Source of the DNA: Flavipsychrobacter stenotrophus
GTDB lineage: Bacteria; Bacteroidota; Bacteroidia; Chitinophagales; Chitinophagaceae
NCBI RefSeq assembly: GCF_002954265.1
Contig: NZ_PPSL01000006.1
Location: 186,001 to 250,000 of the forward strand
Direction: 5' to 3'
DNA: 64,000 bases
In this document: positions 3,079-35,879 of the stretch, piece after piece
Layout of the letters: the number at the start of each line of letters is the position of its first letter
Numbering within the stretch: the stretch's first letter is position 1
The notes under the pieces: generated by a model
Seen by the model: the letters and a program-made list of their open reading frames with translations, nothing else
What the model was told of the DNA's origin: nothing
Databases searched by the model: none
Position numbers and translations under genes: made by a program

Positions 3079-6000
3079 TTACTGCTCCAATACAAAATGG
3101 AACACCTTACTCACATGTTCTGATTGTACATTAAGTATGTACTGACCATTGGCCAGCGCACCATTAAGCAAGATCTGTGTATTGATTTCGCCATTTACTG
3201 TTTTAGCGGTGTTGCTGTATACCTTACGACCCAACACATCAGTTATGTTCAGTGTCACTTCTTCATTGTTTTTTATACCCAGGTCACCCTTGATGGTGAA
3301 TGAACCATTATTAGGGTTAGGGAGCAATGATAGATTAACTCCATTCTGATTGAGCTCATGCACACCTACATTAGTACCTATTGCAATGGTCAATGATGTA
3401 AACACACTCACGCCGCTACACTGGTCGGTATTGGTAACCGCGCAACTTACTGAGTCACCATTCAACAATGTGTTGGTGATGAATACAGTATTGGTAGCGC
3501 CTGTGATCGGAATATTGTCAATGAACCACTGATAGGTAGGTGCAGTACCACCACCGCTGGTAAGTGTGATGGTAAATGTATCGTTCATGCCCGCCGGAAT
3601 AATATACCCGGGCTGTGCTGTGATAACACCTACAGGTTGTGTAATTGGCAACACGGTTATAGTCTCATTAGCAGTTGCAAACGGTGTGGTCACGCAAGGG
3701 AAGTTACTGGTCATGGTCACCTGCACATTATCACCATTAACAGGTGGATAAGAGAATATAGGACCCGCGACTGTGTTCACTCCGTTTACTGCCCACTGGT
3801 AAGTAGGAGCTGTACCACCACCTATCATATTGGTTGTAAATATTTCGGGGTAACCCTCGCAGGTTGTCAAGCCCAATGATGAGTTGATGGAAACAAATGG
3901 CGTTATCAGGTTACTTACCGTTAGTGTCTTGGTAGCCGTGGCAGTTGTGGCCGTGCGGCAGAAAGCATTACTGTTTAGAATAGCAGTTACTACATCACCA
4001 TTAGCAGGAATATATCCGTAAGACGAACTTGTACCTACAAAACCAAGGTTAACATACCACTGATACGTAGGTGCCGTACCACCCGCCACAGGAATTGCAT
4101 TGATGGTAGTAAATGCACCCGAACAAACAGTATCTCCGCCAGGTATAGACAAGCTTACAGCCGGTGTAACAATAGGATGCACCGTCATGGTAACCCAATT
4201 ACTTGCAGTATCAGGCACAGCACAACCATAGTTACTCAGTATCCAAAGCCTTACCAGGTCACCATCGGCAGGATGGTAAGTGTAAGTAGATGCACCGGAT
4301 AAGATAACATTATTGATACTCCATACGTATAACGGGGCAGATCCACCGTTAACAATAGTACCCGAGAATGTAACCGTATCTCCTGCACATATAGTTGTAG
4401 ACGGGCTGGCATTTACGGTAACTGAAGGCACCACAATAGACGTAACATTTACAGGCAAGATCACATAACAGCCGCTTGTACCTGTAGTATAAGAAATGGT
4501 TGCAGGCCCTATAGCCACACCATGTGCCACACCCGATGCGTCGATAGTTACATTCGTAGTATTGCTACTGCTCCATGTGCCGCCACCAACAGCATTGCTT
4601 AGTGTGCTTATGCCATTGATACATATGGCAGCTGAGCCTGTAATAGGCCCCGGTATTGAATTTACAATAACACTTGTAGCTGTTTTACAACCCGTTGGCA
4701 ATGTGTAGGTGATAGTAGATGTACCCGGAGTTAGCCCCGTAACACCACCACCCGAACTAACAGTAGCAACAAATGGATTGCCAACCGTCCAGGTGCCACC
4801 AGGCGTAGAGGAAAGCGTTGTTACAGATGTCTGGCAAACAGAAAGCGTACCTGCAATAGCAGATGGCAATGGTTTTACCTGAAATGGAGCGGTATAAGAG
4901 CAAGCGTTACTGCCGGTATAGCTAACAGTAGCAATACCCGCATTTACACCGGTAACTACTCCCGCTGAAGTGATCGTTGCTATTGTAGCAGGAGTGATAC
5001 TCCACGTACCAGGAGTGGTAGTATTTGTCAATGTGGTCATATCACCCGCCTCGCATACAGACAAAGCTCCTCCTATTGGATTAGGTATTGGCAATACAGT
5101 AACGTTGGTAGCTATAGAGCAACCCGTAGCTGTAATAGTATAAGAAATAGCCACTACTCCCGCAGCTACACCATACACCACACCACCGGCATCAACAGTA
5201 GCTGTGGCTGTAGCACCACTGCTCCATGTACCACCCGTTGTAGTTTCAGTAAGCGTAATAGTTGCACCACCACCGCATACGGTAGTTGTCGCACCACCTA
5301 TTGGCGCAGGCAATGGATTAACGGTAGCCGGAACAGATACGTAGCAGCCGGTAGCATTTAATGTATAAGTAATATTGGCTGTGCCTACTGCAGCACCTGT
5401 CATAGTACCCGCAGGTGAACCCATAGTAACATTCGCATTAGAAGAAGACCATGTACCGGGAGCAGAAGCATCTGTAAGTAAGGTCGACTGATTCAAACAA
5501 ACAACTGGTGTACCACCAATAGCCGCAGGAAGCGGATTGACCGTAATAGCTCTGGTAACATAACAACCGGTTATTGGCAGTGTGTAAGTAACTGTGCCAG
5601 CACCCGCACCTACCCCTGTAATAGTACCGGCAGCATCAATTGTCAAAGCTGTACCCGGACCACCGCTCCATGAACCTGTGCCTGAAGCATCGGCCACGGT
5701 TACTGTAGCACCATTCTCGCAAACTGCTGACGCGCCGGTAATAGCCAAAGGAAGCGGATTGACCGTAATTGGCGTGGTTACATAACAACCGGTAACCGGT
5801 AAGGTATAAGTGATAGTAACACTACCTGTAGTACCGCCCGTAACTACCCCACCCGAAGTGATCGTAGCGGTAGCTGATGGCCCTGAACTGCTCCATGACC
5901 CCGTACCACTTGCATCTGTAAGTGATATGGTAGCACCACCCGCACATACGCCCGAAGGACCTGATATTGGTGATGGCAAAGGATTGACCGTAATAGTGGT

Positions 6001-8859
6001 TGATGCACTGCAACCAACTGACACTGCATAAGTAATAGCCGAGCTACCCGATGCAACTCCTCCAACTGTACCAATAGTACCGGCGCCCGATACTGTGGCG
6101 GCGGCAGTGGTACCGCTGGTCCATGTACCACCAGTAGCAGTATTAGCCAATGATATTGTGCTACCCGCACACACTGCCGTAGAACCCGTGATGGCAGGCA
6201 TAGCTGCATTTACCGTGATAGGATAAACAACATAGCAACCCGACGGCATAATATAACTGATAGTAACCGGACCGGTAGACACACCGTAAACCGCACCACT
6301 GGCTGCATCAACAGTAGAACGAGCTATAGTACCGCTGCTCCATGAACCACCCAATGTAGTTTCAGACAGCGTCATGATACCGCCTACGCACACTGTAGTT
6401 GGGCCCGTGATACTGTTTGGTGCCGATATAACCGTGATCAAAGCGGTATCTGAACAGCCCGTGATAGGTGCTGTATAAGATACTATAGTAGTACCTACCC
6501 CAACACTTGTTACCTGGCCTGTAGCACTAATGGTAGCTACAGCAGGACTGCCACCACTCCATGTACCGCCAGCGGTAAGATCTGTAAGCGTGGTGGTAAA
6601 ACCACCCGTACATAATGTGAACAGACCCAGGATAGGTGAAGGTGGAGGATTCACAATGAGCGTCAATGTATAAGTATTGGTACAACCTGTAGTTGAGTTT
6701 TTGATAGTTAAAGTACCCGTATATGTATTGGCTGCTGTACCACCCGGAACAGTAACCGTGAGCGGGCTTGCAGGCAAAGCAGTGAAAGCGGTAATATCTG
6801 CCGGACCGCCTGCAGGCAACCAGGTAAGTGTATATTGGTTAGGCGTACTTAGTGAGCCTGTATATATATAGTTGACAGTTGCTGTTGCGGTATTGTAACA
6901 CATTATGGCCGACGTAGTCAACCCGGTAAGGCTTACCGCTATTACTGTGTAACTGTTAGGCGTAGTAGGCGCTGTTGTAACCGTGTTCACATCGGTAGCT
7001 ACCAACCCTGCAGAAGGATTGGCGAACACTGCACCGGCCGTTGTCTGCGCTATTACGTAATAAGTGATCACATCGGTACCCGCTACACCACCCATAGTAC
7101 CGGCAGTAATGTTGAAATTCCATGTACCGCTGCTGGCAGTACCACTGGCCAAGGTACCCGAGGAATGGAACCATGCACCTGCATTCTTCCTGAAGTAGAT
7201 TTGCGGAACGGTAACACCGGTAGTAGGCACACCCACACCCGACGTAATGGTCACACCATTCAGTGCCACATCGCCCGTGCTGCAGGTAGTAGTTGGCAGC
7301 AAAGTGTAAGAAATGTTATTGGCTACTATCTCATCTGCGCCCATTGTTGGAAAAGTAGTGCTTCTTGTATTGCCATCTATGTCGGTAGTAATTGCTGGTG
7401 TGCCAATGGGGGTACCTGTAGCTAATACGTTGTTGGCGGCCGCTGTAGTAAGATGTAGATCATAAGGAACAACAGTAGAAACAAATGCAGGTAGGTATGG
7501 AGTAATTGAATTGACATTACCACCAAAACCCGTTTGCATTGCAGCAATTGTGGTTCTGTTTACACCACCAATTCTACCCAGGTTAGGTGAAACAGAATAA
7601 TAGTCGTTATAATCCATCCCATTTGCTGGGAAAATTGTATTTGCAGCCGTGCAATAGACGCCATAACGGGTAGAACCAGATGTCTGGCTATTTACAATAA
7701 TGTTGTTTTTAATTATTACTGACCCAGCTGTCGTAACAGCATTTGTAATATTAATAGCCGCAGTAGCAAGTCCCGCAGTGGAATTGGTAATTAGCTGTAT
7801 CGTATTGTTATACAAATTATATCCACCTCCCAGATCTATAATTATTCCATAGCCATTATCTCCGAAACCAGTGCCGCCAGTCCAACCAGTAGTTGACCAG
7901 ATGTTGTAGACAAAATTATTGTACACATTAATATTGGATGCTGTAGTTGTTGCATCCAGAAAAATACCATTGCAACCAAATGTAGCAGCGGTATTATTTA
8001 CGTTGCCCACACTATTATTATATATATTTCCTCCGGCAAAAGAAGATGTCAACTGAATACCGGTTGGGCAGGATGCTGTGTTAGCACTTACTCCATCTAT
8101 AATATTATTACTAATAGTGAAACTGCCAGCATTCTGTAAGATCATTCCGCGAAATCCAAGTGTAAGAAATGAGTTACCCGTAATATTCCAGTTCAAATCG
8201 TACGGGGCTGTTGCCACTCCAAAAAGATAAATACCATTCTGTGTATTTGAAAAAAGATTATTCTGTATTGTATTGTTTGAATTGGCTGTTAATGCCGCGG
8301 CACCAACAGTACTACTGCCAGTAAGTATACCAGCAACAGTTGTTCCTGCTGAAAACCCGGTTATTTTACAATTCTTAATTACGTTATTCGTAGCTCCATC
8401 TGCCGCACTTGCGCTTACTATCCAAAGCACAGTGACAGTTCCTGTATTAGTATTTGTAATAGTGAGGTCCCTGGTTGTTCCACCGGCTGTATTTGATCCA
8501 TCAATGGTAACATTATCTGCTCCGTTCAACTGAAGGATGCTACTGGTAGCTATATTTCCTGTTATCGTTGGCGTTGTTGCTGCAGCTGGCTTTATTGTAA
8601 TAGCACTATAAACAGACGATCCTGTCCCACTACTGTTCAAAACTGACTGTACCGTTTCGGTTGTATTCGCCGTGACTGACACATTAATAACACCCTGATG
8701 TGTACCCGCATTGATCGCATTTACAGCACCATTCAATGTAGTATACACAGTTGGCCCAACCGTACCCGCAGTGGCGGTAACACTAATCTGCGCATGCGCA
8801 ACAGTGGCAAATAATAGGGTAAATGCAAAAATGAGCAAGCCAGAAAACTTACTCTTCAT
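3079..8859 (-). CDS. Giant T9SS-secreted surface protein: beta-helix head plus Ig-like stalk (paralog A)
   Basis: Predicted extracellular protein of about 1926 aa. The start at 8859 gives a clean signal peptide (MKSKFSGLLIFAF...AHAQ); an ATG six codons upstream (8877) is possible. Residues about 25-520 have the Asn/Gly/Ile-rich ladder of a right-handed parallel beta-helix (NVTIDGSN, NNVIKNCKITGF) ending in DIDGNTRS...MGADE. Two poorly defined beta-rich modules follow. Then come ten BIG2-like Ig repeats of about 75 aa, each with a VCxG start, a GGTWSS tryptophan, ATV..GVVTGV and a TGC near the end. Four longer modules (GGTAPTYQWxVNG...NGDxV) follow, and a C-terminal T9SS sorting domain (LLPNPNNGSFTIKG...VFHFVLEQ). 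An adhesin or matrix role is inferred from architecture; no catalytic motif is seen. It is the first of four tandem paralogs. Confidence 0.85.
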   Translation of the reverse strand: MKSKFSGLLIFAFTLLFATVAHAQISVTATAGTVGPTVYTTLNGAVNAINAGTHQGVINVSVTANTTETVQSVLNSSGTGSSVYSAITIKPAAATTPTITGNIATSSILQLNGADNVTIDGSNTAGGTTRDLTITNTNTGTVTVLWIVSASAADGATNNVIKNCKITGFSAGTTVAGILTGSSTVGAAALTANSNNTIQNNLFSNTQNGIYLFGVATAPYDLNWNITGNSFLTLGFRGMILQNAGSFTISNNIIDGVSANTASCPTGIQLTSSFAGGNIYNNSVGNVNNTAATFGCNGIFLDATTTASNINVYNNFVYNIWSTTGWTGGTGFGDNGYGIIIDLGGGYNLYNNTIQLITNSTAGLATAAINITNAVTTAGSVIIKNNIIVNSQTSGSTRYGVYCTAANTIFPANGMDYNDYYSVSPNLGRIGGVNRTTIAAMQTGFGGNVNSITPYLPAFVSTVVPYDLHLTTAAANNVLATGTPIGTPAITTDIDGNTRSTTFPTMGADEIVANNISYTLLPTTTCSTGDVALNGVTITSGVGVPTTGVTVPQIYFRKNAGAWFHSSGTLASGTASSGTWNFNITAGTMGGVAGTDVITYYVIAQTTAGAVFANPSAGLVATDVNTVTTAPTTPNSYTVIAVSLTGLTTSAIMCYNTATATVNYIYTGSLSTPNQYTLTWLPAGGPADITAFTALPASPLTVTVPGGTAANTYTGTLTIKNSTTGCTNTYTLTLIVNPPPSPILGLFTLCTGGFTTTLTDLTAGGTWSGGSPAVATISATGQVTSVGVGTTIVSYTAPITGCSDTALITVISAPNSITGPTTVCVGGIMTLSETTLGGSWSSGTIARSTVDAASGAVYGVSTGPVTISYIMPSGCYVVYPITVNAAMPAITGSTAVCAGSTISLANTATGGTWTSGTTAAATVSGAGTIGTVGGVASGSSAITYAVSVGCSASTTITVNPLPSPISGPSGVCAGGATISLTDASGTGSWSSSGPSATATITSGGVVTGGTTGSVTITYTLPVTGCYVTTPITVNPLPLAITGASAVCENGATVTVADASGTGSWSGGPGTALTIDAAGTITGVGAGAGTVTYTLPITGCYVTRAITVNPLPAAIGGTPVVCLNQSTLLTDASAPGTWSSSNANVTMGSPAGTMTGAAVGTANITYTLNATGCYVSVPATVNPLPAPIGGATTTVCGGGATITLTETTTGGTWSSGATATATVDAGGVVYGVAAGVVAISYTITATGCSIATNVTVLPIPNPIGGALSVCEAGDMTTLTNTTTPGTWSITPATIATITSAGVVTGVNAGIATVSYTGSNACSYTAPFQVKPLPSAIAGTLSVCQTSVTTLSSTPGGTWTVGNPFVATVSSGGGVTGLTPGTSTITYTLPTGCKTATSVIVNSIPGPITGSAAICINGISTLSNAVGGGTWSSSNTTNVTIDASGVAHGVAIGPATISYTTGTSGCYVILPVNVTSIVVPSVTVNASPSTTICAGDTVTFSGTIVNGGSAPLYVWSINNVILSGASTYTYHPADGDLVRLWILSNYGCAVPDTASNWVTMTVHPIVTPAVSLSIPGGDTVCSGAFTTINAIPVAGGTAPTYQWYVNLGFVGTSSSYGYIPANGDVVTAILNSNAFCRTATTATATKTLTVSNLITPFVSINSSLGLTTCEGYPEIFTTNMIGGGTAPTYQWAVNGVNTVAGPIFSYPPVNGDNVQVTMTSNFPCVTTPFATANETITVLPITQPVGVITAQPGYIIPAGMNDTFTITLTSGGGTAPTYQWFIDNIPITGATNTVFITNTLLNGDSVSCAVTNTDQCSGVSVFTSLTIAIGTNVGVHELNQNGVNLSLLPNPNNGSFTIKGDLGIKNNEEVTLNITDVLGRKVYSNTAKTVNGEINTQILLNGALANGQYILNVQSEHVSKVFHFVLEQ

Positions 8860-8947
8860 CAATGTATAGATAGACATAACAACAACTTTATAGAATTATT
8901 CAATATAGATAACCCATTGTAAACTTAACGATTCCTTATTATTAGAA

Positions 8948-8955
8948 CAAATTTA
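8948..8955 (-). promoter_or_regulatory. Candidate -7 element upstream of paralog A
   Basis: On the minus strand this reads TAAATTTG, matching the Bacteroidota -7 consensus TAnnTTTG, about 90 bp upstream of the start codon. I could not place a -33 TTTG at the right distance, so this is tentative. Confidence 0.35.
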
Positions 8956-9039
8956 CGTTTGAGATTGTTTATTTATTATCTTTTTACACTTTTTTATTAA
9001 CCGTAAGTTATAATTACTTAATCCACAAAAAACTAAAAC

Positions 9040-9065
9040 AGCCCGTCCATATTACCGGACGGGCT
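9040..9065 (-). terminator. Hairpin terminator of paralog B
   Basis: Inverted repeat AGCCCGTCC / GGACGGGCT (9040-9048 and 9057-9065, 8-nt loop), followed on the minus strand by a T-rich tract. It lies just past the 3' end of the gene starting at 14649. A related hairpin ends paralog C. Confidence 0.8.
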
Positions 9066-9100
9066 GCTCAACCTTTTATCTAAATATAATAGACGAGGTA

Positions 9101-9121
9101 TTATCTACTATCTACTATCTA
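9101..9121. repeat. Tandem heptamer repeat across the paralog B stop codon
   Basis: Three copies of CTATCTA (the first reads TTATCTA) in perfect 7-nt register. On the coding strand this is (TAGATAG)n, and the stop codon TAG (9115-9117) lies inside it, so TAG triplets follow in other frames. Confidence 0.85.
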
Positions 9122-12100
9122 CTCAATGAGAAATGGAACGTCTTGCTCACATTAGGCGATTGAACGTTGAGCAGGTACATGCCTGCTGCAAGGCTATTGC
9201 TCAATATCACCTGCTGGTCCAGTTCACCACCCTTTGTTATCGCGGTATTTCTGTAGATCACCTGGCCCAGCATATTGGTAACTTCCAGAGTCACTTCCTC
9301 ATCCTTAGCATTACCTACACTACCTTTTATAGTAAATGTACCACTGTTAGGGTTGGGTATCAGCAAGAGGTTACTACCCTGCTGCGTAAGATCATGTACG
9401 CCTACATTGCTGCCTATGGCAATGGTGAGAGAATTGAACACACTTACACCGCTGCACTGGTCAGTATTGGTTACCGCACAACTTACTGAGTCACCATTCA
9501 TAAGTACATTAGTGATGAACACAGAGTTAGTAGCACCTGTAATCGGAATATTATCAATGAACCACTGGTAAGTAGGTGCAAGACCACCACCACTTATCAG
9601 GTTGATGGTAAACGTATCGTTCATGCCAGCAGGAATAATATAACCAGGCTGTGCGCTGATCACACCTATTGGCTGTGAGATCGGCAATACCGTTATAGTC
9701 TCATTTGCAGTAGCTGTTGGTGTTAACACGCAAGGGAAATTGCTGGTCATTGTTACCTGCACGTTATCACCATTTACAGGAGGATAAGTGAAGATATTAC
9801 CTGAAACTGTATTCACACCATTTACCGCCCACTGATAAGAGGGAGCAGTACCACCACCTGTCATGTTGGTAGTAAATACCTCAGGATAACCTTCGCAGGT
9901 AGTCAATCCTAATGACGAGTTGATAGATACGAATGGCGTTATCAGATCACTTACAGTAATTACCTTAGTTGCCGATGCCGTAGGCGCCGTGCTGCAAGGC
10001 GCATTGCTGGTCACAATAGCAGTTACCACATCACCGTTTGCCGGTGTGTAGGTGATATTCGGACCTACACCCGCAAAGGCAAGATTCACATACCACTGGT
10101 AACTAGGCGCTGTGCCACCTGCTACAGCTATGGCATTTACCATTGTTGGCACACCTGTACAAACTGTGTCGCCACCCGTTATAAATAAGGTAAGGCCAGG
10201 AGTTACTATCGGGTTAACGGTCATAGTTATCCAGTTACTCGCTGTATCGGGTATAGCGCATGAATAGCTGCTCAGTACCCATAGCCTTACCAGGTCGCCA
10301 TTGGCAGGAGTATAGCTATAACTTGTTGCATTAGATAAGATCACATTGTTCACACTCCACACATACAGCGGACTTGCGCCACCATCTGTTATTGCAGCAG
10401 AATAAGTAACCGGTGTGCCCGCGCACACAGTGCTTGATGGGCTGGCGAACAAAGAAACCGTAGGGCTCACTATACCATTCACTGTTATTGGTAGTGTTGC
10501 ATAGCAACCACTGGTACCAGTTGTATAGGTCATCGTAGCCGCACCCACCACAAGGCCGTGCATAATGCCGGTTGTAGCTTCTATCGATGCTATAGCAGGT
10601 GCGCTGGTGGTCCACACGCCACCCGCTATTGAATTATGTAGTGTAGATACGCCACCGAAGCAAACATAGTTAGCGCCGGTGATAGTGCCCGGTATAGCAT
10701 TTACAGTAACCGTTGCGGTAGTAATACAACCCGTAGGCAATGTGTAAGTAACCAGCGAATTACCGGCCAGTATACCACCTACACCACCACCTGAGTTTAC
10801 AGAGGCAATGAACGGACTACCCACACTCCATCCGCCGCCCGGGCTGGTAGAAGACAAGGTAGTCACTGACAACTGACATACAGAGAACGTACCGGTAATG
10901 GTAGCCGGTAATGGATTAACAGTGATCGGTGTAGTTACAAAGCAACCATTACCACGTGTATAGGTAACCGTTGCACTACCTGCCGCAATTCCTGTTACTG
11001 CGCCTGTTCCTGATATAGTTGCGCTGGCGCCAGAGCTTATGCTCCATACACCTGGCACTGTTGAATTGTAAAGATTGGTAACACTACCCGCCTCACATAC
11101 AGATGTAGTACCGGTTATTACAGCGGGTGTAGGTATTACAGTAATATTTCTGGAAATATAACAGCTGGTTGTTCCATTGCTATATGTGATAGGCGCCGTA
11201 CCTGCTGATACACCGCTTACCACGCCGGTTGTTGCATCTATTGTTGCTACAGACATATTACCGCTGCTCCATGTACCACCAGTTGTTGCACTTGTCAGCG
11301 AAATATTCGCACCACCTCCGCACACAGTGTCGGTAATTCCGGTTATTGGTTGAGGCAATGGATTAACAGTTGCGGCAGCGGTAGTGTAACACCCTGTCAC
11401 AGGCAATGTGTAAGTGATGATTGCAGACCCTGCACTTACACCGCCCATAATACCGGAACCTGTACCAATTGTTGCTACTGCTGTATTATTAGAGCTCCAT
11501 GTACCTGTTCCTGAAGTATTAATAAGAGTAACCTGGTCATTAACGCACACCGTAGGTGTACCTCCTATCGCAGCAGGCAACGGATTAACTGATATGGCAC
11601 TTGTAACAAAACAGCCTGTAACAGATAAAGTATAGGAAACTGTTCCTGCACCTGCCGTGCCGCCTGTGATCGTTCCGACTGCATCTATAGACAAGGTACC
11701 CGACGGGGTTGCGCTCCATGAACCACCTGCGGTAACATCCGATACTGTAACAGTTGAACCACCTTCACAAACAGCACCCGGACCAGATATAGGAGCCGGT
11801 AACGGATTAACTGCAATTGGTGTAGTTATATAACAGCCTGTAACCGGTAGTGTATAAGTAATAGTAACACCACCTGTTGCTACACCTGTAACCACACCAC
11901 CCGATGTAATTGTAGCAATAGTAGAAGGTCCCGAGCTACTCCACGAACCTGTACCTGTAGCATTGGTAAGTGAAATCGTTGCACCGGCAGCACACACACC
12001 TGTAGGACCACTGATAGGTGCAGGGAGCGGATTCACATTGACACTCTTGTAAGCATTACATCCTACGCTGGTAGAATAAGTAATTGTAGATGTTCCTGCA

Positions 12101-14871: not shown

Positions 14872-14872
14872 T

Positions 14873-14900
14873 CTATCTACTATCTACTATCTACTATCTA
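14873..14900. repeat. Four perfect CTATCTA heptamers ending at the paralog C stop codon
   Basis: Four uninterrupted copies of CTATCTA (28 nt). The last three bases, 14898-14900, are the complement of the TAG stop codon of the gene at 14898-19316. The same arrangement is seen at the end of paralog B. Confidence 0.9.
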
Positions 14901-17900: not shown

Positions 17901-19316
17901 AGTACCCGGTGAAGACGTACCCGTAACACTACCGGTAGTCACCCCACCCATTCTCCTGGGAACATATCCCAGAGTTGTTGCTCCCGTTACAGAGGCCGTA
18001 GTGTTCAGGTAAATAGTCACACCTTCAAGGTCATAAGTCGCAGTGTTGTAACCCGCATCTCTGTACATCCAGAAGGAGATCTGTCCACCGGTGATGCCAC
18101 TCATAGAGAACGATGGCGATATCAATGTAGCATTGGTACCCGTGCCATAGCTCCAGCTATGAAATGCCGCCAGGAAGCTACCTGTATGCGGTGCTACAGT
18201 AGGATAAGTACCATTCGCTACCTGCGTTAGATATGCTGCCGATGTAGCTGTAGTATTCCACCCTGCTACCGGTGTACCCGGCACTGTAGGCACACCACTC
18301 TCCCATCCCTGGTTGGGTATAAGATTAATGGCGGCCGGGGGCAATGTAGCGGTAAGTGTAACCGTATTACCATTACATATGGTAGCTACCGATGGTGTTA
18401 CCACCGGTGCCGGCGGTGGAGTGAGTAAACTCACGTTTGCGGTTGCAGTTACACTGCAACTACCATTGGTACCGGTAAAAGTGTATACACCCGCTGTAGT
18501 AATACCATTGATTACCGGGCTAAGGTTTGTTGAAGTAAAACCTCCCGGTCCGGCCCATGAATAACCAGTACCACTGGTAGTACCTGTCAGTGTTACCGTA
18601 CCACCGGGACACACAGCCGCACTGGCAGCAGCCGCAACCGTTACCGGGCAGCCAAACCACCTGTATACTGTCCCACTGCCCGGCGATGTACCGATATTTG
18701 TTGTAAACGTAGTGCTCGATGGTGTTGGCGATGCCGCAGCAGATGGAAGGCTTTGATAATCGGTAGTGCTGTTAGCAATACCAATAGATGCCGAGTGCGA
18801 TGCGTAGGTACTGCTACCATACCAGAATTCGATCACATTAGTAGTCTCGTAAAGCTTTACCTGCATATTGCAATTGCCCGATCCTGTCCAGGTGCCCCAG
18901 TTGGTGTATTCAAATGTAAAAACCCTGTTGGGCGATGTGCCGGTTGTCTGGTACCAGGCCGTATTACCAGCCCCGTTCAGATCATCCCAATACGGCATCA
19001 GGAATCCCGCGCCTTGTATATTGGCTGCACTATTGGTCAGTATGGTAGACGAACTGTTGTTAAGCGATAACCAGCCATTAGAGCATGCCGACAATTGCGT
19101 ATAGGCTACGCCACAAAAAGTAAATGAGAACCCTATAGGCACTCCCGTCTGGTTCCTGTCATCCCCCAAAAATGTAGACCCCATAGCCGTTCCCGTTGCC
19201 GATATACTGCTGTATGTGCCCGTTGTGGCGGTGAAATTATAAGCTGCTGCTGTTGTCTGGCCATACCCGGCCCACGATACCAAAAGGAGGATAAATAAGA
19301 TGGATAAACGTTTCAT
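14898..19316 (-). CDS. Giant T9SS-secreted surface protein: nidogen-like and lectin-like head, short Ig stalk (paralog C)
   Basis: Predicted 1472-aa secreted protein with signal peptide MKRLSILFILLLVSWAGYGQ. The head resembles paralog B: VPIGFSFTFCGVAYTQL, ACSNGWLSLN, PYWDDLNG and FTFEYTNW, then VCPGGTVTLTG...WAGPGGFTST. The next domain (about 325-510, NQGWESGVP...DDISITGLQ) is a beta-sandwich of lectin or MAM type, diverged from that of B. Only six BIG2-like repeats follow. By order and sequence they match B repeats 1-3 and 9-11, so a five-repeat block is absent. Four constant modules and a T9SS tail (LAPNPNNGTFTIKG...TFHFTVQQ) complete it. No enzyme motif is visible. The gene is probably monocistronic, with its own terminator. 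Confidence 0.85.
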   Translation of the reverse strand: MKRLSILFILLLVSWAGYGQTTAAAYNFTATTGTYSSISATGTAMGSTFLGDDRNQTGVPIGFSFTFCGVAYTQLSACSNGWLSLNNSSSTILTNSAANIQGAGFLMPYWDDLNGAGNTAWYQTTGTSPNRVFTFEYTNWGTWTGSGNCNMQVKLYETTNVIEFWYGSSTYASHSASIGIANSTTDYQSLPSAAASPTPSSTTFTTNIGTSPGSGTVYRWFGCPVTVAAAASAAVCPGGTVTLTGTTSGTGYSWAGPGGFTSTNLSPVINGITTAGVYTFTGTNGSCSVTATANVSLLTPPPAPVVTPSVATICNGNTVTLTATLPPAAINLIPNQGWESGVPTVPGTPVAGWNTTATSAAYLTQVANGTYPTVAPHTGSFLAAFHSWSYGTGTNATLISPSFSMSGITGGQISFWMYRDAGYNTATYDLEGVTIYLNTTASVTGATTLGYVPRRMGGVTTGSVTGTSSPGTAGWYQYTCAIPAGFTGGTNYLMFYFYSRFGNDIHTDDISITGLQALAPPVWTPITDLFSTPTFSTPYAAGDTLLTVYMHPTSTVTSTTTSYIATITNGVCTSSDTAVITVNTGVPAITGSSSICVGTSATLANPTPGGTWSACNNTVATIDPLTGVVSGLAAGIDTIYYTVSGGCSAFFVVNVITFSTATTGNTIICNGGFTTALANSTPGGSWTTSNATIATVSAAGVVTSGVAGTAVITYTMPSGCNDTTLLNVLPPPTAITGLAEVCYNGGTTVLASTPTGGTWTSSNPSVASVDAATGVVTGYTAGTPTITYTYIPGCFATTPVLMKANPAPIAGITDVCEAGSMTSLSDATPGGAWSGAGASAYIDSNGVVTGVTAGTEMITYTAPNSCYVSTAVTVNPLPAALTGTFEVCQTNITTLSSTSGGGTWTSGATSIATVNAGGGVGGVTGGIASITYTLPTGCKTTSNVQVDQIPAAITGNNYVCNGYTSLLSDATVGGTWSSSNNLQATVDTTGTVSGVAVGSAVITYTTGPGSCFATKPITISPTAPPVVTIAASTGTTICAGTPVTFNSSVIDGGISPLYVWSINNVISSNATIYSYTPANGDVVRLWVLSSYACSIPDTSSAVLTMTVNPIVTPSVGLTTGMGDTVCTGMLTTMTALPVAPGPSPTYQRFVNSLPVGGGTTYSYVPANGDVVTVNMSSSAPCRTTTAVSGSKVLTVSPYVTPMVSLTSSMGPVMCEGYPDVFTAAQVNGGTAPTYQWAVNGVNTATGAVFSYAPANGDDVSVMLTSNFPCVSSPTAFTHFVPTVIPVVQPIGVVTADPGYIIPAGVTATFTCTILSGGGTAPTYQWLKNNIPLAGETNSIYSTNVLFTGDSVSCQVTNTDECSGVTVFNYVVVTVGSNVGVNNVNTTGNLVLAPNPNNGTFTIKGNLGVTTNEQATLEVTDMLGQVVYKQQVSTQAGELNESVSLPGSLANGIYLLNVRTQAGSNTFHFTVQQ

Positions 19317-19717: not shown

Positions 19718-19746
19718 AAAATCTCCCGGATATACCGGGAGATTTT
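19718..19746 (-). terminator. Hairpin terminator of paralog D
   Basis: Perfect 12-bp inverted repeat AAAATCTCCCGG / CCGGGAGATTTT with a 5-nt loop (19730-19734), followed by a T-run in the minus direction. Confidence 0.9.
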
Positions 19747-19807
19747 CATCTATTTATTAAGCTACACCTCCCGCTCTCTTAAAGAGGCCGGGTGCGGCTA
19801 AGCATTA

Positions 19808-22800
19808 TTACTTCTGCTCCAGAACAAAATGGAAGATCTTGCTCATGTGCTGCGAACGTACGCTCAACACGTAGCTACCATTAGCAAGAATACCGTTCAG
19901 TTTCACCTGCTCGTTAAACTCACCATTCTTAGCTTCTGTATGACCGGTATACACTACCTGGCCCAGCATGTTGGTTACTTCCAGTGTCATATCCTCATTG
20001 CTCGACAGACCAAGGTTACCCTTCACTATGAACGAACCATTATTAGGATTTGGCACCAGAGATATACTAGCCTCGCCACCGCTCACATTGTTCACATTTA
20101 CACCACCGCTGCCCAGTACACTCATAGCCAGAACGTTGGATATAGTAGTACCACCGCAAAGGTCCGTGTTGGTAACATGGCAGGTAACCAGGTCGCCCGA
20201 TACAAGCAGGCTCGTAATGAACGTAGTACCATTAGCACCAGATACCGGTACACCGTTAATGTACCACTGGTAAGCCGGAGCTGCACCACCACCGCTTACT
20301 AAAGTAACGGTAAAGGTGTCTGTCATACCAAGCGTTATGGTAGTACCCGGATGAGCTGCTATAGTTGCTACAGGTGTTACTGTAGTTCCTACTGTCATGG
20401 TCATTTGTGCGGTATCAGATGTTGGTGCTACGCAAGGATAGCTGCTGGTCATTCTTACCACAACCATATCACCATTTGCAGGCACATAGAAGTAGGTAGG
20501 ACCTGTTGCTACTGCAACGCCATTTACTGTCCACAGGTAAGCAGGACTGCCGCCACCATTGGTTTCCGTTGTGTTGTAAACAACTATACTGCCACCGCAT
20601 GATGTAGCACCGGTGCTCGATGTCAAGGTAACATCAGGCACTACGAATGGTATGATATCCAGTGTAAGACTTGCTGATGTAACTACTGCAGTACTACCCG
20701 ACAGACAACCCGCTGTGCTGGTCATTACCGCGGTAACAACATCGCCATTGGTAGCCAGGTAAGTATAGTTGCTGGTGCCCGATACTGGAGAACCATTTAC
20801 ATACCACTGGAAGGTAGCACCTGTACCGGCACTAACCGGATGAGTATAAACTGTAGTGAATGCTCCCGCACAACCCGTATCGGTATACGCTGTTGCCAGA
20901 GTAAGAGCCGGAGTAACAATCGGATCTACTGTCATAGTAACAGATCCGCTTGCTGTTGCAGGAACCGCACAGCTAAGGTTACTTACGATGCTCACTCCAA
21001 CAACATCACCCGTTACTGGTACATAGCTGTAAGAGCTTGCGGCAGACATTGGCGAACCATTTACTGTCCATGAGTAAGTTGGCGCGGTACCACCATTAGT
21101 AATCGTTGGCGTGTAGGTAACTGTAGAACCCGCACAAACCGTTGTACCTGGGTTGGCATTAATAGTTACTGTAGGTACAAATGAAGGATTAACCGTCATA
21201 GTGCTGTATGCCTGGCAACCGCTGCCATTCGTAAGTGTAATGTTTGCGGTACCCACACTCAATGCATGTACTATACCTGTACCAGCTTCTATCGATGCGA
21301 TGGCAGGTGAACCACTTGTCCATGTACCACCCGATGGTGAGCTGGTAAGCGTAGTAGTAGTATTGTTACACATTGATGTAACGCCTGATATTGCGCCGGG
21401 CAATGCATTTACGGTAACCGTAGTGCTGCGTGAGCAACCTGTTGATGTTTGTGTAAAGATGATCGTACCACTACCCGAAGTAACACCCGTTACCATACCC
21501 GATGCATTCACGGTAGTGATCGTTGGTGTAGAGGTACTCCATGTACCCGGTGTACTTGCATCGGCCAGTGTGGTAGAAGCAAGGTTACAGATAGTTGTAG
21601 TACCCGTTATTGCCGCAGGCAAAGCGTTTACTGTTACAAGTGCTGTATCAAAGCAACCATTTACAGCAGTGTAAGAGATAACCACGGTACCGGAAGTAAC
21701 ACCTGTTACCACACCCGAAGAATTCACTGTAGCTCTGAACACATTACCCGATGCCCATGTACCCGATCCTGTAGCATCAGACAAGGTAGTAGCACCACCC
21801 GATGCACACACAGCCATTGTACCTGTTATGTTCGCAGGATTAGCATTTAGTGTCAATGACTTTGTAGCCATACAACCCGGTATTGTAGTATAGGTAATAT
21901 TGGCAGTACCCGCTGTAAGGCCGGTAACTGTTATTGGAGAACCCGTAGCTGCAGATATAGTAGCTATTGTACCTGTCGAGGTTGTCCATGTACCACCCGT
22001 TGTTGATTCAGTAAGCGTAGTAGTACCACCGTTATAACATACCGATGTACCACCGCCTATTGCTGCCGGAGGCGCCACTGATGTTACCAATGAAGTATCG
22101 GCACAACCAGTAGGCAATGTATAGGTAATGATAGCAGTACCTGCTGTACCCATAGTTACCACACCACCCGAGCTTACCGTAGCCACACCTGCATTGCTGC
22201 TGGTCCATGTACCACCGGTAGTAGGGTTAGTTAATGTTGTAGAAAGGCCGCTGCAGATAACTGTGCTGCCTGTAGTTGTTGTAACGAAAGTAGACACGTT
22301 AATTACAGTGAAAGTAACACAACCACCTACTGTATAGAATACAGTATCTGCACCCGCAGCAACACCCTGGATCACACCACCCGCAGTAACAGTTGCTACT
22401 GTAGTATTAGATGTTGTCCATGTGCCACCTGTAGTGGTATTAGATAAGGTAAGATTGCTGCCTGCACACACATAATTAGAACCGGTAGCTGTTGTTATAG
22501 CAGGCGGTGCTGTAATAGTTACCGTACTTGTATCGAACGACGAACATGTACCCAACGTTGTGCCGGCTATATAATCTACAGCTGTTGTAGTCAATACCGT
22601 AGTAGGATGCACATACACTTCATATGCTGCGGTACCCGCTACATAAGGAGTTGTCAACGCAGGGTCAGAGAACAGATAGGTTGACGGCGTCCATACCGGA
22701 GCCGGGCCTACTATTGGTGTACCTGTTAAGCTTACATTGTCAACAGCCCAATAATAACCGTAGTTAGTGTTATAATAGAAACGCAACTGGCAATTAGTAC

Positions 22801-25800
22801 TACCCGCATACGGAGTAAGATCATAGTTATCAGTAACAAAACTAGTCGCTGTACCGGTAGTAATCGTTGCATAATCATGGATCAAACTCCAGGTTACACC
22901 ACCATCTGTCGAAATATCTACAGAGACAACATTATCCATATAGTATGCATGCAAATAATGTTGGAACGATAATGCCACGGAAGCAAACCCGGCTAACGAG
23001 AACGTGGGAGATATAAGACTACTTACTGTAGTGTATGAACTACTACCTGAAACGTCCGCATTCGTTATTACAAATGGTGAATTATCAGGACTATGGAATG
23101 TAGTACCAAAACCATACGTGTAGCCATCTGGTTCTCCCTGCCAAGGACTCAACGCAGCAGGTGATGTACTACCCGTGTTATCAACTGTCCATGTACCTAA
23201 TCCTGCATTAAAATCTTCAGTAAGAATTGGTGTACCTGGTAAACCCGGCACAGTAGCAGTAAGCGTCACACTTGAACCATTACACACAGTAGCCGGAGCC
23301 GGAGTTACAACCGGTATAGGCGATGTAGGTAACAAAGGCTGCGTAGCTGTCATTGTCAATGTACATGTACCATCAGTAGCGGTAAATGAATACACACCAA
23401 CAGTAGCAGCACCAGGAACTGTAGGGTTTAGCAATGTAGATGTGAAGCCACCCGGTCCGCTCCATGAATAAGATGGTGCTGTAGTAGTACCTGTAAGATT
23501 GAACGGACTGTTAGGACATACCGCAGCGCTTGCAGCAGCAGTAGAAGTAAACAGGCAATGAGGTATGATATAAACTCTGTAATCAATTGCATCACCACTG
23601 TAGTAAGATGGAGAAGTTCCAAGGTAAGACATATTACATGGGTCAAGGTGCAAAGGTGCACTAGAGCCACCCGGATATTGCTCCCATATAGCACGTACAC
23701 GCATATTGTGTGTACCCAATGCGCCACCCGCAGGGATAGAGATATTGAAATTGGTAGGATTAGAAGTGAAGCTCGGATCAAATCCACTTACAGGAGATAC
23801 TTCCTCTGTTGTTTCAAAGATACCGTTATCGTTAAAGTCTATCCACACCTGCAATTCCTGATGATCGTAAGTGCTGTACCACAAACCTGATGATGCGTAA
23901 ACACCACCCTGTTCCATTGTGATTGGCGCTAATGTTGTATGGTCCAGATATCCGGTAGTAGTACTAACAACAGCATTCAGACCTATATCATCAAGGTTAG
24001 AACCTGCAAAACCCGCTACGTGGAACTCATCGATACCCGCATAGGTACCACCGGCATAAGACCATGAAGAGCTACCTGGGTAGCAAGGTGGTGTAGCTAC
24101 ATAAGTGATCATAGCAGGGGTAGATGTTGTTGATGTACTGCTTAGCGTACAAACAACTACACACTGGTACCACATGTCATTAAATATACTTATAAACGAG
24201 TAGGTATTATTAGTTGCGCCTGTTATGTCCGTCCACGGTCCGGTAGCACTTGTAGCAGACTGCCACTGGAATGTAAGGCCAGCTGCCATAGACAGGCCTG
24301 GCAGACTTAAAGTAAATGGTATAGAAACACCACCACTTGTAGGTGATGCAGCAGCAGTACCAACTACGGGAGCACCGGTACATGCAGGAAGAGCAATGAT
24401 ATTTGCCATGTAATCGCGCGTCATACCATAGTAGTAATTATACATTGCATCGTATGAATTACATGGATCCATATCCGAAGATAAACCGCAATCATATGTG
24501 TATGCATTTCTAACACGCATTCTGTGAAGGCCAACGGCCGCTGTCATTGGAATAGAAAGGGTATAACCATCAGATGTTATATAGCTCGAGCATAATCCTG
24601 TTCCAATCACAGGAGTTACTTCTTCGGAAACATCAAAAACTCCGTTGTTATTAAAGTCTATCCAGATCTGGTTTTCATATTCATAACCACCACTGCTGTA
24701 TGACAGGTTACCGGTATAAACACCACCTTGCTGCAGATCTACCGCAGGTACCGATGTCATATCTTCATATCCACTCGCAGGTATTGTTGCAGGTCCTGCA
24801 TCGCTAAGCGTAGAGCCGGCATAGCCAGTTAATGAAACAACATCTAAGCCATAAGAAGTTGCTGCAGGTGAGTAAACATAAGACGGAGTGCAAAAGCAAT
24901 AGCCAAAATAGTTCACAAAGACTGGAGTTGAAGTTCCCGACAAACTCGTTGCCGAGCAGGTAACCACTATTTGATAATAAGTAGGCGCAGTTTCAACATT
25001 TGAATAGATCAATGAGGTCGCACCTGCTATATCTGCATATGGACCACCCACGCTTACAGATGACTGCCATTGGTAGGTAAGACCGGTTGCTGTAGATGTA
25101 CCGGTTGAATTCAAGGTAAACGCTGTTGAAGGACATGCAAGTGTTGTTGACGCGGTTGCGGTACCACCTGCTGGTGCACCTGAACAAGGTGGAGCAGCAA
25201 TAATATTAGCAATATAATCGCGTGTCATACCATAGGTATATGTATTGCCACTTGCATCACTCAATGCGCATGGATCCATATCTGCCGATGTTGAACTACC
25301 ATAATACATCACGCTGTATCTCACTCTCATACGATGTGTGCCTACAGCAGCAGTAATTGGTATATTCATAGTGTAAACATCAAAATAGCTATATGGCGAT
25401 GAATAGATCGGCGCAGTCACCTCTTCTGAAATATCAAAAACACCATCATTATTGAAGTCTATCCAAATCTGACTTTCGTAAGCATTCCAGCCATCGTGGT
25501 AACTTATGTCTCCTGTATAAGTATCTCCTTGTTGTAGATCAACACTGATCGTTGTTCTGTCGTCATAACCATTAGTAGGCTGTGGCGATGTTCCACCATC
25601 ACTTATTGAGCTACCGGCATACCCTGTGAGGTTATATATATCTATACCCTCGTAAGATGGTGATGCTGGTGAATTGCTGTAAGAAGGCACACAATAGCAG
25701 AAGCCAAAGTAGTTAACAAATACCGGAGTAGATGTCCCACTTGTAGAAGATGCAGGGCAGTTAACTACCAATTGGAAATAGGTTGGAGAAGTTATCACGT

Positions 25801-27520
25801 TAGAATATGTTGGAGAAGTTGCTCCCGATATATCTGTCCACGGTCCTGTAGCACTTGTAGATTCCTGCCACTGGTAAGTAAGTCCTGCTGCTACTGTAAG
25901 TCCTGTTGAACCTAAAGTAAATGCTGTTGCAGGACACGCCAATGTAGCAGATGATGTAGCAGTACCACCGCTTGGTGTACCCGTACATGAAGGCGCTGCT
26001 AGTATGTTAACTGTATAATCACGGGTCACACCATAATAATAATAAGTCGAATACCCCAGACTCATATCAAAGTTGTTACAAGGATCCATCTCCGAAGGAA
26101 CACTACTATACTGAAGATCAGTGTAACGCACTCTCATACGGTGAGAACCTAAAGGAGCGGTAATAGGAACTGTAATTGAAAAAGGGTCGGAAGAAGAATA
26201 CGAACTTGTATAAATTACAGGAGTGGCTAGTTCTGAAATATCAAATATGCCATCATCGTTATAGTCTATCCATATCTGACTTGCATAGGTGTATACACTG
26301 TAACTATAATTAAGGTTGCCGCTGTATGTATTTCCTTGTTGCATGTCAACAGAAATACCTGTTCTGTTTTCATAGCCATCCGCTGGCACTGTAGCCGGCC
26401 CGGCATCGCTAATTGTCGATCCGGCTTCCCCAGTAATATCGAACAAACCAAGTGCACCTGCGTAGGTATATGTGGCAGGATAATAATAATACAACCCAGT
26501 ATTACAATAACATACCGGACTAAAGGTAACACTGGTCGTAGTAGAAATATCGAAAGAACCTGAACCTGGGCACGTAACTACAACCCTGTAATACATGTCC
26601 ATAGTTTCAGTTGTCACAGAAGTACTATTTGTTGCACCCGGTATATTGGTCCAGGTAGAAAAGTCTGGAGAAGACTGCCATTGGAAAGTAAGGCCAGTTG
26701 CTGCTGTTGTACCGGTAACGCTTAAAGTAATATTGTCAGTTATACATGCCGTAGCTACATCTGCCACTGCAGTACCAGCCACCGGTGTACCTGTACAAGG
26801 TGGTGGGGGTGTCCAGCTATAGATTTGACCATTGGCTGGCGAATTATAAATGTAATCGAAAAATGATGTCGAAGATGCAGTCGGTGCTGAGCTCACATCA
26901 GATAAGGTCTGCCAGTCGCTCCCACTATTAGCAATACCAACAGTAAGGTCATTAGAGGTAAGCGTTCCGTTATTATAAACAAAATCGATTTGGTTGGTCG
27001 TTTCATATAAAATAACCTGGAAGTCTTGTGATCCGGCACCCGAGTACCCATACCTTTCAAAGCCATTCCATTCAAAAATAAATTTCCTGTTTGGCGCAAC
27101 GCCCACAGTAGTGTAGTATGTACTACCTGTGGCTGCTGTGTATGCACCTCCATCAAGGTCATCCCATAAAGGCATCAATAGGCCAACGCCGCCTGCAACA
27201 CCTGACACCGAGCCTAGGGAATTATACCCATAAGATGAAGGATATCCCGCCAGCGATAACCAGCCGTTCGAACAGGCAGTAAGCTGAGTATATGTTACAC
27301 CGCAAAACTCAAAATTAAACCCAATATTAATCGGGTCTGATGTAACATCATCCCAATTCAATGTGTAGGGGTAAGAGCTAACTGGGGGTAATGTACCCGT
27401 CGGTGCTATACTGGTGAACGTACCCGATGAAGCCGTAAACCCATAAGTGGCGGCCGTTATCTGGCTGTAACCCGCAAAAGACAAACACAGCAAGACAAGA
27501 AGTAAGGAAATTTGTTTCAT
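19808..27520 (-). CDS. Giant T9SS-secreted surface protein with four GEVED domains (paralog D)
   Basis: Largest protein here, about 2570 aa. The start at 27520 (MKQISLLLVLLCLSFAGYSQ) gives a textbook signal peptide; an in-frame ATG 12 codons upstream (27556) is the alternative. After a nidogen-like module (INIGFNFEFCGVTYTQL, ACSNGWLSLAG, LWDDLDGG) there are four tandem pairs of an Ig-like module (AAGLTYQWQ...) and a GEVED domain. Each GEVED domain has a CYC-type start, a GYxxRT segment, QIWIDYNDDGIFDISE and LGxHRMRVR...DPC. The D-x-N-x-D-G loops look able to bind calcium. Then come VCPNSPFNLTG/GPGGFTST, a lectin/MAM-like domain (TEDFNAGLGTWTVDN...AVDNVSLTGTP), six BIG2-like repeats, four constant modules and a T9SS tail (LVPNPNNGSFIVKG...KIFHFVLEQK). 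Surface adhesion or a structural role is inferred. Confidence 0.85.
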   Translation of the reverse strand: MKQISLLLVLLCLSFAGYSQITAATYGFTASSGTFTSIAPTGTLPPVSSYPYTLNWDDVTSDPINIGFNFEFCGVTYTQLTACSNGWLSLAGYPSSYGYNSLGSVSGVAGGVGLLMPLWDDLDGGAYTAATGSTYYTTVGVAPNRKFIFEWNGFERYGYSGAGSQDFQVILYETTNQIDFVYNNGTLTSNDLTVGIANSGSDWQTLSDVSSAPTASSTSFFDYIYNSPANGQIYSWTPPPPCTGTPVAGTAVADVATACITDNITLSVTGTTAATGLTFQWQSSPDFSTWTNIPGATNSTSVTTETMDMYYRVVVTCPGSGSFDISTTTSVTFSPVCYCNTGLYYYYPATYTYAGALGLFDITGEAGSTISDAGPATVPADGYENRTGISVDMQQGNTYSGNLNYSYSVYTYASQIWIDYNDDGIFDISELATPVIYTSSYSSSDPFSITVPITAPLGSHRMRVRYTDLQYSSVPSEMDPCNNFDMSLGYSTYYYYGVTRDYTVNILAAPSCTGTPSGGTATSSATLACPATAFTLGSTGLTVAAGLTYQWQESTSATGPWTDISGATSPTYSNVITSPTYFQLVVNCPASSTSGTSTPVFVNYFGFCYCVPSYSNSPASPSYEGIDIYNLTGYAGSSISDGGTSPQPTNGYDDRTTISVDLQQGDTYTGDISYHDGWNAYESQIWIDFNNDGVFDISEEVTAPIYSSPYSYFDVYTMNIPITAAVGTHRMRVRYSVMYYGSSTSADMDPCALSDASGNTYTYGMTRDYIANIIAAPPCSGAPAGGTATASTTLACPSTAFTLNSTGTSTATGLTYQWQSSVSVGGPYADIAGATSLIYSNVETAPTYYQIVVTCSATSLSGTSTPVFVNYFGYCFCTPSYVYSPAATSYGLDVVSLTGYAGSTLSDAGPATIPASGYEDMTSVPAVDLQQGGVYTGNLSYSSGGYEYENQIWIDFNNNGVFDVSEEVTPVIGTGLCSSYITSDGYTLSIPMTAAVGLHRMRVRNAYTYDCGLSSDMDPCNSYDAMYNYYYGMTRDYMANIIALPACTGAPVVGTAAASPTSGGVSIPFTLSLPGLSMAAGLTFQWQSATSATGPWTDITGATNNTYSFISIFNDMWYQCVVVCTLSSTSTTSTPAMITYVATPPCYPGSSSWSYAGGTYAGIDEFHVAGFAGSNLDDIGLNAVVSTTTGYLDHTTLAPITMEQGGVYASSGLWYSTYDHQELQVWIDFNDNGIFETTEEVSPVSGFDPSFTSNPTNFNISIPAGGALGTHNMRVRAIWEQYPGGSSAPLHLDPCNMSYLGTSPSYYSGDAIDYRVYIIPHCLFTSTAAASAAVCPNSPFNLTGTTTAPSYSWSGPGGFTSTLLNPTVPGAATVGVYSFTATDGTCTLTMTATQPLLPTSPIPVVTPAPATVCNGSSVTLTATVPGLPGTPILTEDFNAGLGTWTVDNTGSTSPAALSPWQGEPDGYTYGFGTTFHSPDNSPFVITNADVSGSSSYTTVSSLISPTFSLAGFASVALSFQHYLHAYYMDNVVSVDISTDGGVTWSLIHDYATITTGTATSFVTDNYDLTPYAGSTNCQLRFYYNTNYGYYWAVDNVSLTGTPIVGPAPVWTPSTYLFSDPALTTPYVAGTAAYEVYVHPTTVLTTTAVDYIAGTTLGTCSSFDTSTVTITAPPAITTATGSNYVCAGSNLTLSNTTTGGTWTTSNTTVATVTAGGVIQGVAAGADTVFYTVGGCVTFTVINVSTFVTTTTGSTVICSGLSTTLTNPTTGGTWTSSNAGVATVSSGGVVTMGTAGTAIITYTLPTGCADTSLVTSVAPPAAIGGGTSVCYNGGTTTLTESTTGGTWTTSTGTIATISAATGSPITVTGLTAGTANITYTTIPGCMATKSLTLNANPANITGTMAVCASGGATTLSDATGSGTWASGNVFRATVNSSGVVTGVTSGTVVISYTAVNGCFDTALVTVNALPAAITGTTTICNLASTTLADASTPGTWSTSTPTITTVNASGMVTGVTSGSGTIIFTQTSTGCSRSTTVTVNALPGAISGVTSMCNNTTTTLTSSPSGGTWTSGSPAIASIEAGTGIVHALSVGTANITLTNGSGCQAYSTMTVNPSFVPTVTINANPGTTVCAGSTVTYTPTITNGGTAPTYSWTVNGSPMSAASSYSYVPVTGDVVGVSIVSNLSCAVPATASGSVTMTVDPIVTPALTLATAYTDTGCAGAFTTVYTHPVSAGTGATFQWYVNGSPVSGTSNYTYLATNGDVVTAVMTSTAGCLSGSTAVVTSASLTLDIIPFVVPDVTLTSSTGATSCGGSIVVYNTTETNGGGSPAYLWTVNGVAVATGPTYFYVPANGDMVVVRMTSSYPCVAPTSDTAQMTMTVGTTVTPVATIAAHPGTTITLGMTDTFTVTLVSGGGAAPAYQWYINGVPVSGANGTTFITSLLVSGDLVTCHVTNTDLCGGTTISNVLAMSVLGSGGVNVNNVSGGEASISLVPNPNNGSFIVKGNLGLSSNEDMTLEVTNMLGQVVYTGHTEAKNGEFNEQVKLNGILANGSYVLSVRSQHMSKIFHFVLEQK

Positions 27521-30661: not shown

Positions 30662-30662
30662 C

Positions 30663-35854: not shown

Positions 35855-35879
35855 AAATCTAAAAAAATAAGCGGTCTGA

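Follow-up and report, generated by a model that had tools for sequence, protein, structure and literature searches.

Head exchange and tail conversion as the probable source of diversity in a family of giant, putatively adhesive T9SS type A proteins of Flavipsychrobacter

Analysis of a 64,000-nt stretch of the Flavipsychrobacter stenotrophus genome (hereafter, the window, which lies on contig 13 of a 5.43-Mb genome designated G000) indicates that four tandem genes, A to D, probably encode giant T9SS type A surface adhesins that were diversified by head exchange and tail conversion and that have a presumed function in binding. Comparison with the same-genus genomes G004, G007, and G009 suggests that the tips of these proteins were replaced by recombination and that some tail segments have stayed similar among adjacent copies. 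What the data show are the outcomes of recombination, namely, cassettes that differ at orthologous loci, one sharp breakpoint, and a copied tail tract; a RecA-type mechanism, the identity of donors and exchange sites, and a role in binding are what we infer.

Genes A (3079-8877; 1932 aa), B (9115-14649; 1844 aa), C (14898-19316; 1472 aa), and D (19808-27556; 2582 aa) are unbroken ORFs on the (−) strand that together fill positions 3079-27556. D starts either at 27556 or at Met13 (27520), with the G007 orthologue aligning from Met13 and the G004 orthologue from residue 1; the outer end of 27520 given in a first-pass annotation of this DNA is thus Met13 of an ORF that reaches 27556. The predicted build consists of a head, a stalk of Big_2-like repeats, a tail of four Ig-like modules, and a C-terminal sorting domain (CTD). 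Each of the four proteins has a hydrophobic N-terminus (by eye) and ends in a T9SS type A sorting domain that exceeds the curated cut-offs of both PF18962 (Pfam) and TIGR04183 (NCBIfam), located on the (−) strand at 3082-3330 in A (1.4e-7 and 7.7e-6, respectively), 9118-9366 in B, 14901-15149 in C, and 19811-20059 in D. The T9SS translocon protein SprA is represented in G000 by a match to SprA_N (534 bits, 5.4e-160; 0 of 14 controls), and at least 150 of 291 G000 candidates matched T9SS type A sorting domains. A to D therefore look like T9SS type A cargo, as predicted from their sequences, and the earlier claims of four giant T9SS cargo paralogs, each with a T9SS tail, held for all four uninterrupted ORFs.

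The stalk, which had been described as constant, varies in repeat number, with pattern counts of 10, 11, 6, and 6 Big_2-like repeats in A, B, C, and D, respectively. These counts come from a looser pattern used in place of a stricter motif that undercounted the repeats; Pfam Big_2 itself matched three to five stretches in each protein. The stalks of A and B span approximately 4408-6645 and 10450-12882, respectively (both on the (−) strand, by Pfam and pattern). The alignment shows four Ig-like tail modules in all of A to D, at 3352-4410 (−) in A (where modules 3 and 4 form the segment that appears converted in G004) and at 9385-10446 (−) in B, and the last 480 residues are 46-72% identical in pairwise comparisons. 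Although four modules are present as proposed, the GGxAPxYQW motif said to mark them is degenerate: a loose pattern found it in all four modules of A and B and in three of four in C and D, where the missed module is visible in the alignment. Likewise, the "constant tail" stands insofar as four modules and a sorting domain are common to A to D, but the likeness appears to be partly a product of gene conversion between neighbors (see below).

The tip of each protein would be a RemA N-terminal, GEVED, or beta-helix domain. The N-terminal heads (N-heads) of B (13945-14577), C (18651-19259), and D (26807-27454), all on the (−) strand, had been annotated as nidogen-like, an assignment that we rejected: none of nine N-head members matched the Pfam NIDO model at E ≤ 1, and a profile of the nine matched residues 19-230 of RemA instead (E = 1.9e-38). 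RemA was absent from a phmmer search with full-length C. This RemA N-terminal (RemA-N) type was found in B, C, D, and E, the last being a fifth relative ~158 kb further along the window's contig, and in gene H of G000; GEVED takes its place in B of G004 and G007. D additionally contains four GEVED domains with Ig between them (23387-26509 (−); PF20009, 1.4e-53 over four stretches), of which modules 2 and 3 are represented by a putative divergent allele in G009. Thus, of the reading of D as nidogen-like plus four GEVED domains, the GEVED part was borne out, whereas the N-head is of the RemA-N type and D also has a jelly roll. GEVED likewise exceeded the cut-off in all four replaced heads, namely, those of B and H in G004, H in G009, and B in G007 (1.4e-12 to 5.5e-19). 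D GEVED units, e.g., window 25300-25600 (−), match the C-terminal part of NF047971 (ThermolysLepto, NCBIfam) at 1.5e-22, far under the cut-off. The head of A is a predicted right-handed beta-helix region (residues ~30-500; 7378-8790 (−)) with an apparently divergent allele in G004: Beta_helix (PF13229) matched two of the three aligned A heads (best, 3e-11) but not the window's own A, for which Pfam returned just NosD at E = 0.68.

To these tips, B, C, and D would add a jelly roll of the MAM/cleaved-adhesin type within an Ig-like domain. Jelly roll 1 occurs in B (13105-13623 (−)) and D (22712-23245 (−); Reelin_subrepeat-B, 1.7e-6), and jelly roll 2 in C (17742-18329 (−)). An AF2 model of B jelly roll 1 (10-residue blocks at pLDDT 61-93; whole-model mean, 55) points to a MAM/reelin/cleaved-adhesin fold, with VIA Z scores of 15.3 for reelin and meprin and 14.8 for Kgp K1; jelly roll 2 takes its place in G004. 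Jelly roll 2 may be cleaved-adhesin-like: a profile of four sequences matched Kgp (4itc) at E = 0.003 and the low-confidence C model (mean pLDDT, 47) gave Kgp K3 as its top Foldseek match at E = 0.002, with no Foldseek match at E ≤ 0.001. The "lectin-like" part assigned to B and C hence exists as a domain, but its probable identity is this jelly roll, and no lectin family appeared in the Pfam lists of A to D. Because D also has a jelly roll, D corresponds to the B/C layout with four inserted GEVED domains, which leaves A as the sole protein whose head differs throughout. The two N-head types (RemA-N and GEVED) are combined with the two jelly rolls in every possible way, for example, GEVED with jelly roll 1 in B of G007 and RemA-N with jelly roll 2 in C.

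A conserved Ig-like stretch is split by the jelly roll in B, C, and D. After removal of the cassette, Ig_7 matched at 22.3, 20.2, and 12.1 bits, all under the cut-off of 27.3; in C, the joined piece scored barely over the 5′ part alone (20.0) and under the sum of both parts (20.0 + 11.6), and the flanks in both structure models are too poor to show an Ig socket. In the ORFs examined, all sites fitting the socket pattern, in eight distinct genes, contain an insert of 183-199 residues, and none is empty; the pattern overlooked some genes, e.g., C of G007 and H of G004. A jelly roll set into an Ig-like socket is thus a weak proposal. The Ig repeat next to the C head (window 18378-18671 (−)) has relatives among the repeats of GhpA, the grappling-hook protein of Aureispira.

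Protein C as a query matched 10 of 11 genus genomes (G000 included) at 1e-100, and at least 11 of 98 sampled genomes of the family Chitinophagaceae, two of them from this genus, matched the tail profile at E ≤ 1e-60, with at most the best 16 candidates per genome considered. Upstream of the cluster, three genes share 77-83% identity between G000 and G004; in G004, they are followed by A, B, and D, with C absent from the cluster. In G007, a 461-aa gene is followed by B, C (a full-length orthologue with 64% identity), and D, with A elsewhere. The moved A of G007 (L042:7556-12892, contig C15) is flanked by the orthologues of window 56658-57098 and 55694-56593, two regions that lie next to each other in G000. 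Present in G000 only, in comparison with G004 and G007, are three ORFs (window 1-2958 (+) and L051:3478-8959) between a 460-aa gene and the adhesin cluster. The last of these, which runs into window 1-2958 (+), matches DNA polymerase III alpha domains; before it come an IMS (impB/mucB) ORF and an ORF of 248 aa with no family assignment, in an order that presumably resembles imuA-imuB-dnaE2.

The closest relative is G009, with 89.5% DNA identity to G000 over 3,561 nt that comprise a 979-aa gene neighboring H together with the upstream flank of that gene, and with 97% protein identity in D past residue 1174 as well as in the H tail. Orthology of E and F in G004 was supported by neighbors that are 93-98% and 95% identical, respectively, and F was assigned in G007 by its sequence alone; genes from G003, G005, and G008 entered the tail comparisons alone. 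B of G009 was absent from the genus searches (G009 is 74% complete, in 500 contigs). H lies on another contig than the window's, has a different Ig-repeat stalk, and carries a tail 22-28% identical to those of A to F; no H tail was found in G007 at 1e-45. H2 (L057:213-5328; ~484212-489327 of G000 contig C15), which duplicates H in tandem but has a different head, is frameshifted at a run of eight C, which may reflect decay or phase variation, and a third H-type gene, H3 (L067:13621-18373, G000 contig C16), is broken up into two ORFs that overlap. Homopolymer runs as a basis for phase variation were considered for the family and rejected, with no C or G run of ≥7 in the window or the family ORFs scanned and a lone C8 in H2 of G000.

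Head type was compared for 13 orthologue pairs against G000 at seven loci (A, B, C, D, E, F, and H), a head being required; the headless A of G009 was excluded, and D of G009, which is without its first 397 residues, was counted by its GEVED domains. Nine pairs kept their head type (two for A, one for C, three for D, one for E, and two for F), and four changed it: B against G004 and G007, and H against G004 and G009. Specifically, B and H have RemA-N plus jelly roll 1 in G000 versus GEVED plus jelly roll 2 in G004. The B cassettes of G000 and G004 (the first ~230 residues and the jelly roll) are unrelated (25-26% identity when alignment is forced), while identity is 65% in the intervening Ig and linkers, 74% in the stalk and first tail modules, and 79% in the tails. 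In comparison, the H cassettes are 24-25% identical, the neighboring parts 72-75%, and the tails 67%. A sharp edge is found in H of G009: a 491-nt segment that begins in the promoter region and ends at codon 7 is 90% identical to G000, and GEVED replaces RemA-N beyond that point. Further upstream, a stretch of ~400 nt that separates the H promoter from the 979-aa gene is also different in the two genomes. The head and tail of H in G009 are on two unjoined contigs; DNA identity of the 3′ part is 89.7% with H and 77.7% with H2 of G000, and the tail is directly succeeded by the next gene, without H2.

Within a genome, B and H share their head at 62% identity over 618 residues in G000 and at 70% over 610 residues in G004, where the jelly-roll region reaches 87%. 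Whole heads at 62-70% are too diverged for a recent direct copy, so some donors would be other alleles. No donors of the exchanged heads were found in the genus genomes searched, and the best genus matches to the B jelly-roll region of G000, itself aside, are 65% identical. The jelly-roll tree rejected the orthologue pairs of G000 and G004 for both B (p = 3e-9) and H (p = 3e-60; AU test), p values that mainly restate the group difference because two barely similar groups (jelly rolls 1 and 2) were aligned. Head and tail phylogenies thus disagree, as the first-pass annotation had anticipated, with tails of 79% and 67% identity behind heads of different families. The cross-genome comparison gave a mixed outcome for the modular head swap proposed there, with heads varying at B and H and head type conserved at A, C, D, E, and F. 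Head exchange therefore appears to be real, yet not general. It is conceivable, though we think it unlikely, that each lineage has its own head type and changes it in concert at the unlinked loci B and H, as in a serotype-like or kin-recognition surface; the matched change was seen in two genomes and may be due to chance.

Divergence was also found within one head type. Between G000 and G009, GEVED modules 2 and 3 of D are 59% identical in protein and agree at 48 of 136 4-fold sites (35%), versus 97% and 637 of 870 (73%) in the remainder (difference, p = 2.5e-17, Fisher), and the G000 modules are nearer to the more distant G004 (83% protein identity) than to G009. These modules in G009 therefore look like an allelic replacement by a divergent allele. 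GEVED 1 is also low at 4-fold sites (41 of 98), yet its protein identity is 91%. In the A beta-helix (residues 60-460), G000 and G004 are 51% identical in protein and 24% at 4-fold sites, versus 81% and 42% elsewhere, and the beta-helix is no closer between these two genomes than between G000 and G007 (60%); the 4-fold difference (p = 0.0011) is borderline, as the regions were mostly chosen after viewing sliding tables. Across the analysis, 28 region comparisons were made with two Fisher tests each, AU groups and regions were mostly post hoc, and p values are uncorrected. C and F show no loss of identity in the head (C N-head, 81% versus 61% in the remainder). Among G000, G004, and G007, 4-fold sites are near saturation, so single events there are not datable.

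Tail conversion is clearest in G004, where the tails of A and B contain a sharp-edged tract of ~540 nt at 95% identity (A residues ~1650-1830). Within it, 535 of 564 nt and 89 of 105 4-fold sites are identical (longest identical run, 58 nt), versus 1763 of 2643 nt and 145 of 428 4-fold sites in the remainder; beyond its edges, identity between A and B falls to 67% across the stalk plus first tail modules and to 53% across the sorting domain. This is a bounded tract, in modules 3 and 4, in which paralogues are more alike than orthologues. Consistent with this, the tree of modules 3 and 4 joins A and B of G004 (95/90) and A and B of G007 (100/97), and it rejects grouping B of G000 with B of G004 (p = 0.007) as well as A of G000, G004, and G009 (p = 0.029). 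The CTD tree, by contrast, joins A of G000 with A of G004 (100/99) and B of G000 with B of G004 (85/84) and rejects A with B of G004 (p = 3e-5); it holds 17 of 18 rows, with A of G009 dropped out, and its bootstrap is unsettled. The G004 tract and the contrast between the two trees indicate that tail likeness among neighbors is partly maintained by conversion. The signal is weaker in G000 (modules 3 and 4 of A and B at 80% nt identity; 4-fold p = 0.031) and non-significant in G007 (4-fold excess, p = 0.25), where the A and B sorting domains also group together (99/99).

We propose that head cassettes were replaced via homologous recombination between paralogues and with incoming alleles, possibly by way of the conserved 5′ leader and of linkers flanking the jelly roll, that tail modules 3 and 4 were rewritten by gene conversion between neighbors, and that a changed binding target would be the consequence of head exchange. 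Could heads instead simply evolve faster than tails under diversifying selection, with no exchange at all? The E N-head (53% versus 78% protein identity; 4-fold p = 0.55) fits fast protein evolution equally well, and the D N-head between G000 and G004 behaves similarly (protein p = 1e-11; 4-fold p = 0.07). However, the B and H heads are different domain families rather than diverged copies, and D GEVED 2 and 3 of G000 and G009 diverged at 4-fold sites too (35% versus 73%), with G000 nearer to the distant G004; faster evolution already fails for B, H, and these modules, and we regard it as very unlikely overall. Differential loss, in which ancestral tandem copies had different heads and each lineage kept another, so that the genes compared would be untrue orthologues, draws on the evident turnover of copies (the G004 cluster lacks C, G007 has A elsewhere, and G000 has an extra H2). 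We nevertheless consider it quite unlikely, given that B retains its position and a 79% tail, while H of G009 retains the G000 promoter region to codon 7 and a 3′ part nearer to H than to H2 (89.7% and 77.7%); a gene that keeps both ends with another head between them cannot arise by whole-copy loss.

Another possibility is assembly chimerism, i.e., heads and tails of different genes or strains joined in draft metagenome genomes, and G009 is indeed 74% complete in 500 contigs, with its H contig ending inside the head gene. Yet B and H of both G000 and G004 are complete ORFs, G004 independently carries a GEVED head at the orthologous H locus, and the G004 A-B tract contains 29 differences in 564 nt and so is no collapsed repeat, which makes this explanation highly improbable. 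A last alternative concerns function: A to D might be filament or matrix building blocks, as we take GhpA to be in Aureispira, rather than tip adhesins. Many stretches of GhpA are matched by the Ig repeat that adjoins the head (3.8e-47 for profile A2 and 1.2e-125 for profile A3, repeats summed), but the similarity is mainly in Ig repeats, the proteins are 1.5-2.6 thousand residues long versus 5,898 in GhpA, and the exchanged RemA-N, GEVED, and jelly-roll domains would fit recognition better; we therefore judge this role unlikely and favor tip adhesins diversified by head exchange and tail conversion.

By analogy, this combination would be a known evolutionary trick carried out in a new family with other parts; no title on such a family was found in the open-licence part of the literature searched. 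A study of the Porphyromonas gingivalis adhesins Kgp, RgpA, and HagA describes combinatorial cleaved-adhesin modules whose variants do not follow strain phylogeny, for which its authors proposed allelic exchange and gene conversion (PMC5266723). These proteins resemble A to D in being T9SS cargo with a conserved C-terminal domain and cleaved-adhesin-type modules, but module variation there is found among strains of a single species, in proteins with or without a preceding protease domain (PMC5266723). Here, in contrast, whole N-terminal heads differ between species-level genomes, the stalk is made of Big_2 repeats, and conversion spares the sorting domain. Flavobacterium johnsoniae RemA (PDB 8gl6) has the homologous N-terminal domain (residues 19-230) and is likewise a T9SS type A surface cargo; it is described as one gliding adhesin with a lectin domain, whereas here RemA-N is one of several interchangeable heads (PMC12618676, PMC10202324). 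The Helicobacter pylori genes babA, babB, and babC encode adhesin paralogues whose variable part is presumed to contact the receptor and whose conserved ends recombine within the genome, and A to D are similar in being paralogous putative adhesins with a variable part and a recombining conserved part, although the heads of A to D change by domain family (PMC6891454). The bab proteins are unrelated and from another phylum, and in A to D, the two Ig modules that directly precede the sorting domain are the ones affected by conversion. Pride & Blaser 2002 is reportedly a further reference on the bab genes. GhpA (PDB 9flp; 5,898 residues), compared by sequence, shares with this family Ig repeats related to the Ig beside the head, and the matches fall in the GhpA repeats.

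If these readings are correct, Bacteroidota with very many T9SS surface proteins could change binding and keep export and anchoring. The RemA-N, GEVED, and jelly-roll cassettes exchanged between stalks would indicate where domains naturally begin and end, which binding tests could exploit, and the parallel change at B and H would allow a recognition code shared across a lineage to be tested; were in-step switching true, one recognition specificity would be copied onto several display stalks. On the far side of D, the cluster is adjoined by parA and parB genes (window 29858-31613 (+)). A second tandem array (window 33786-42064 (−)) encodes four smaller Big_2-repeat T9SS type A cargo proteins of 628-656 aa, all four with CTDs over the cut-off.
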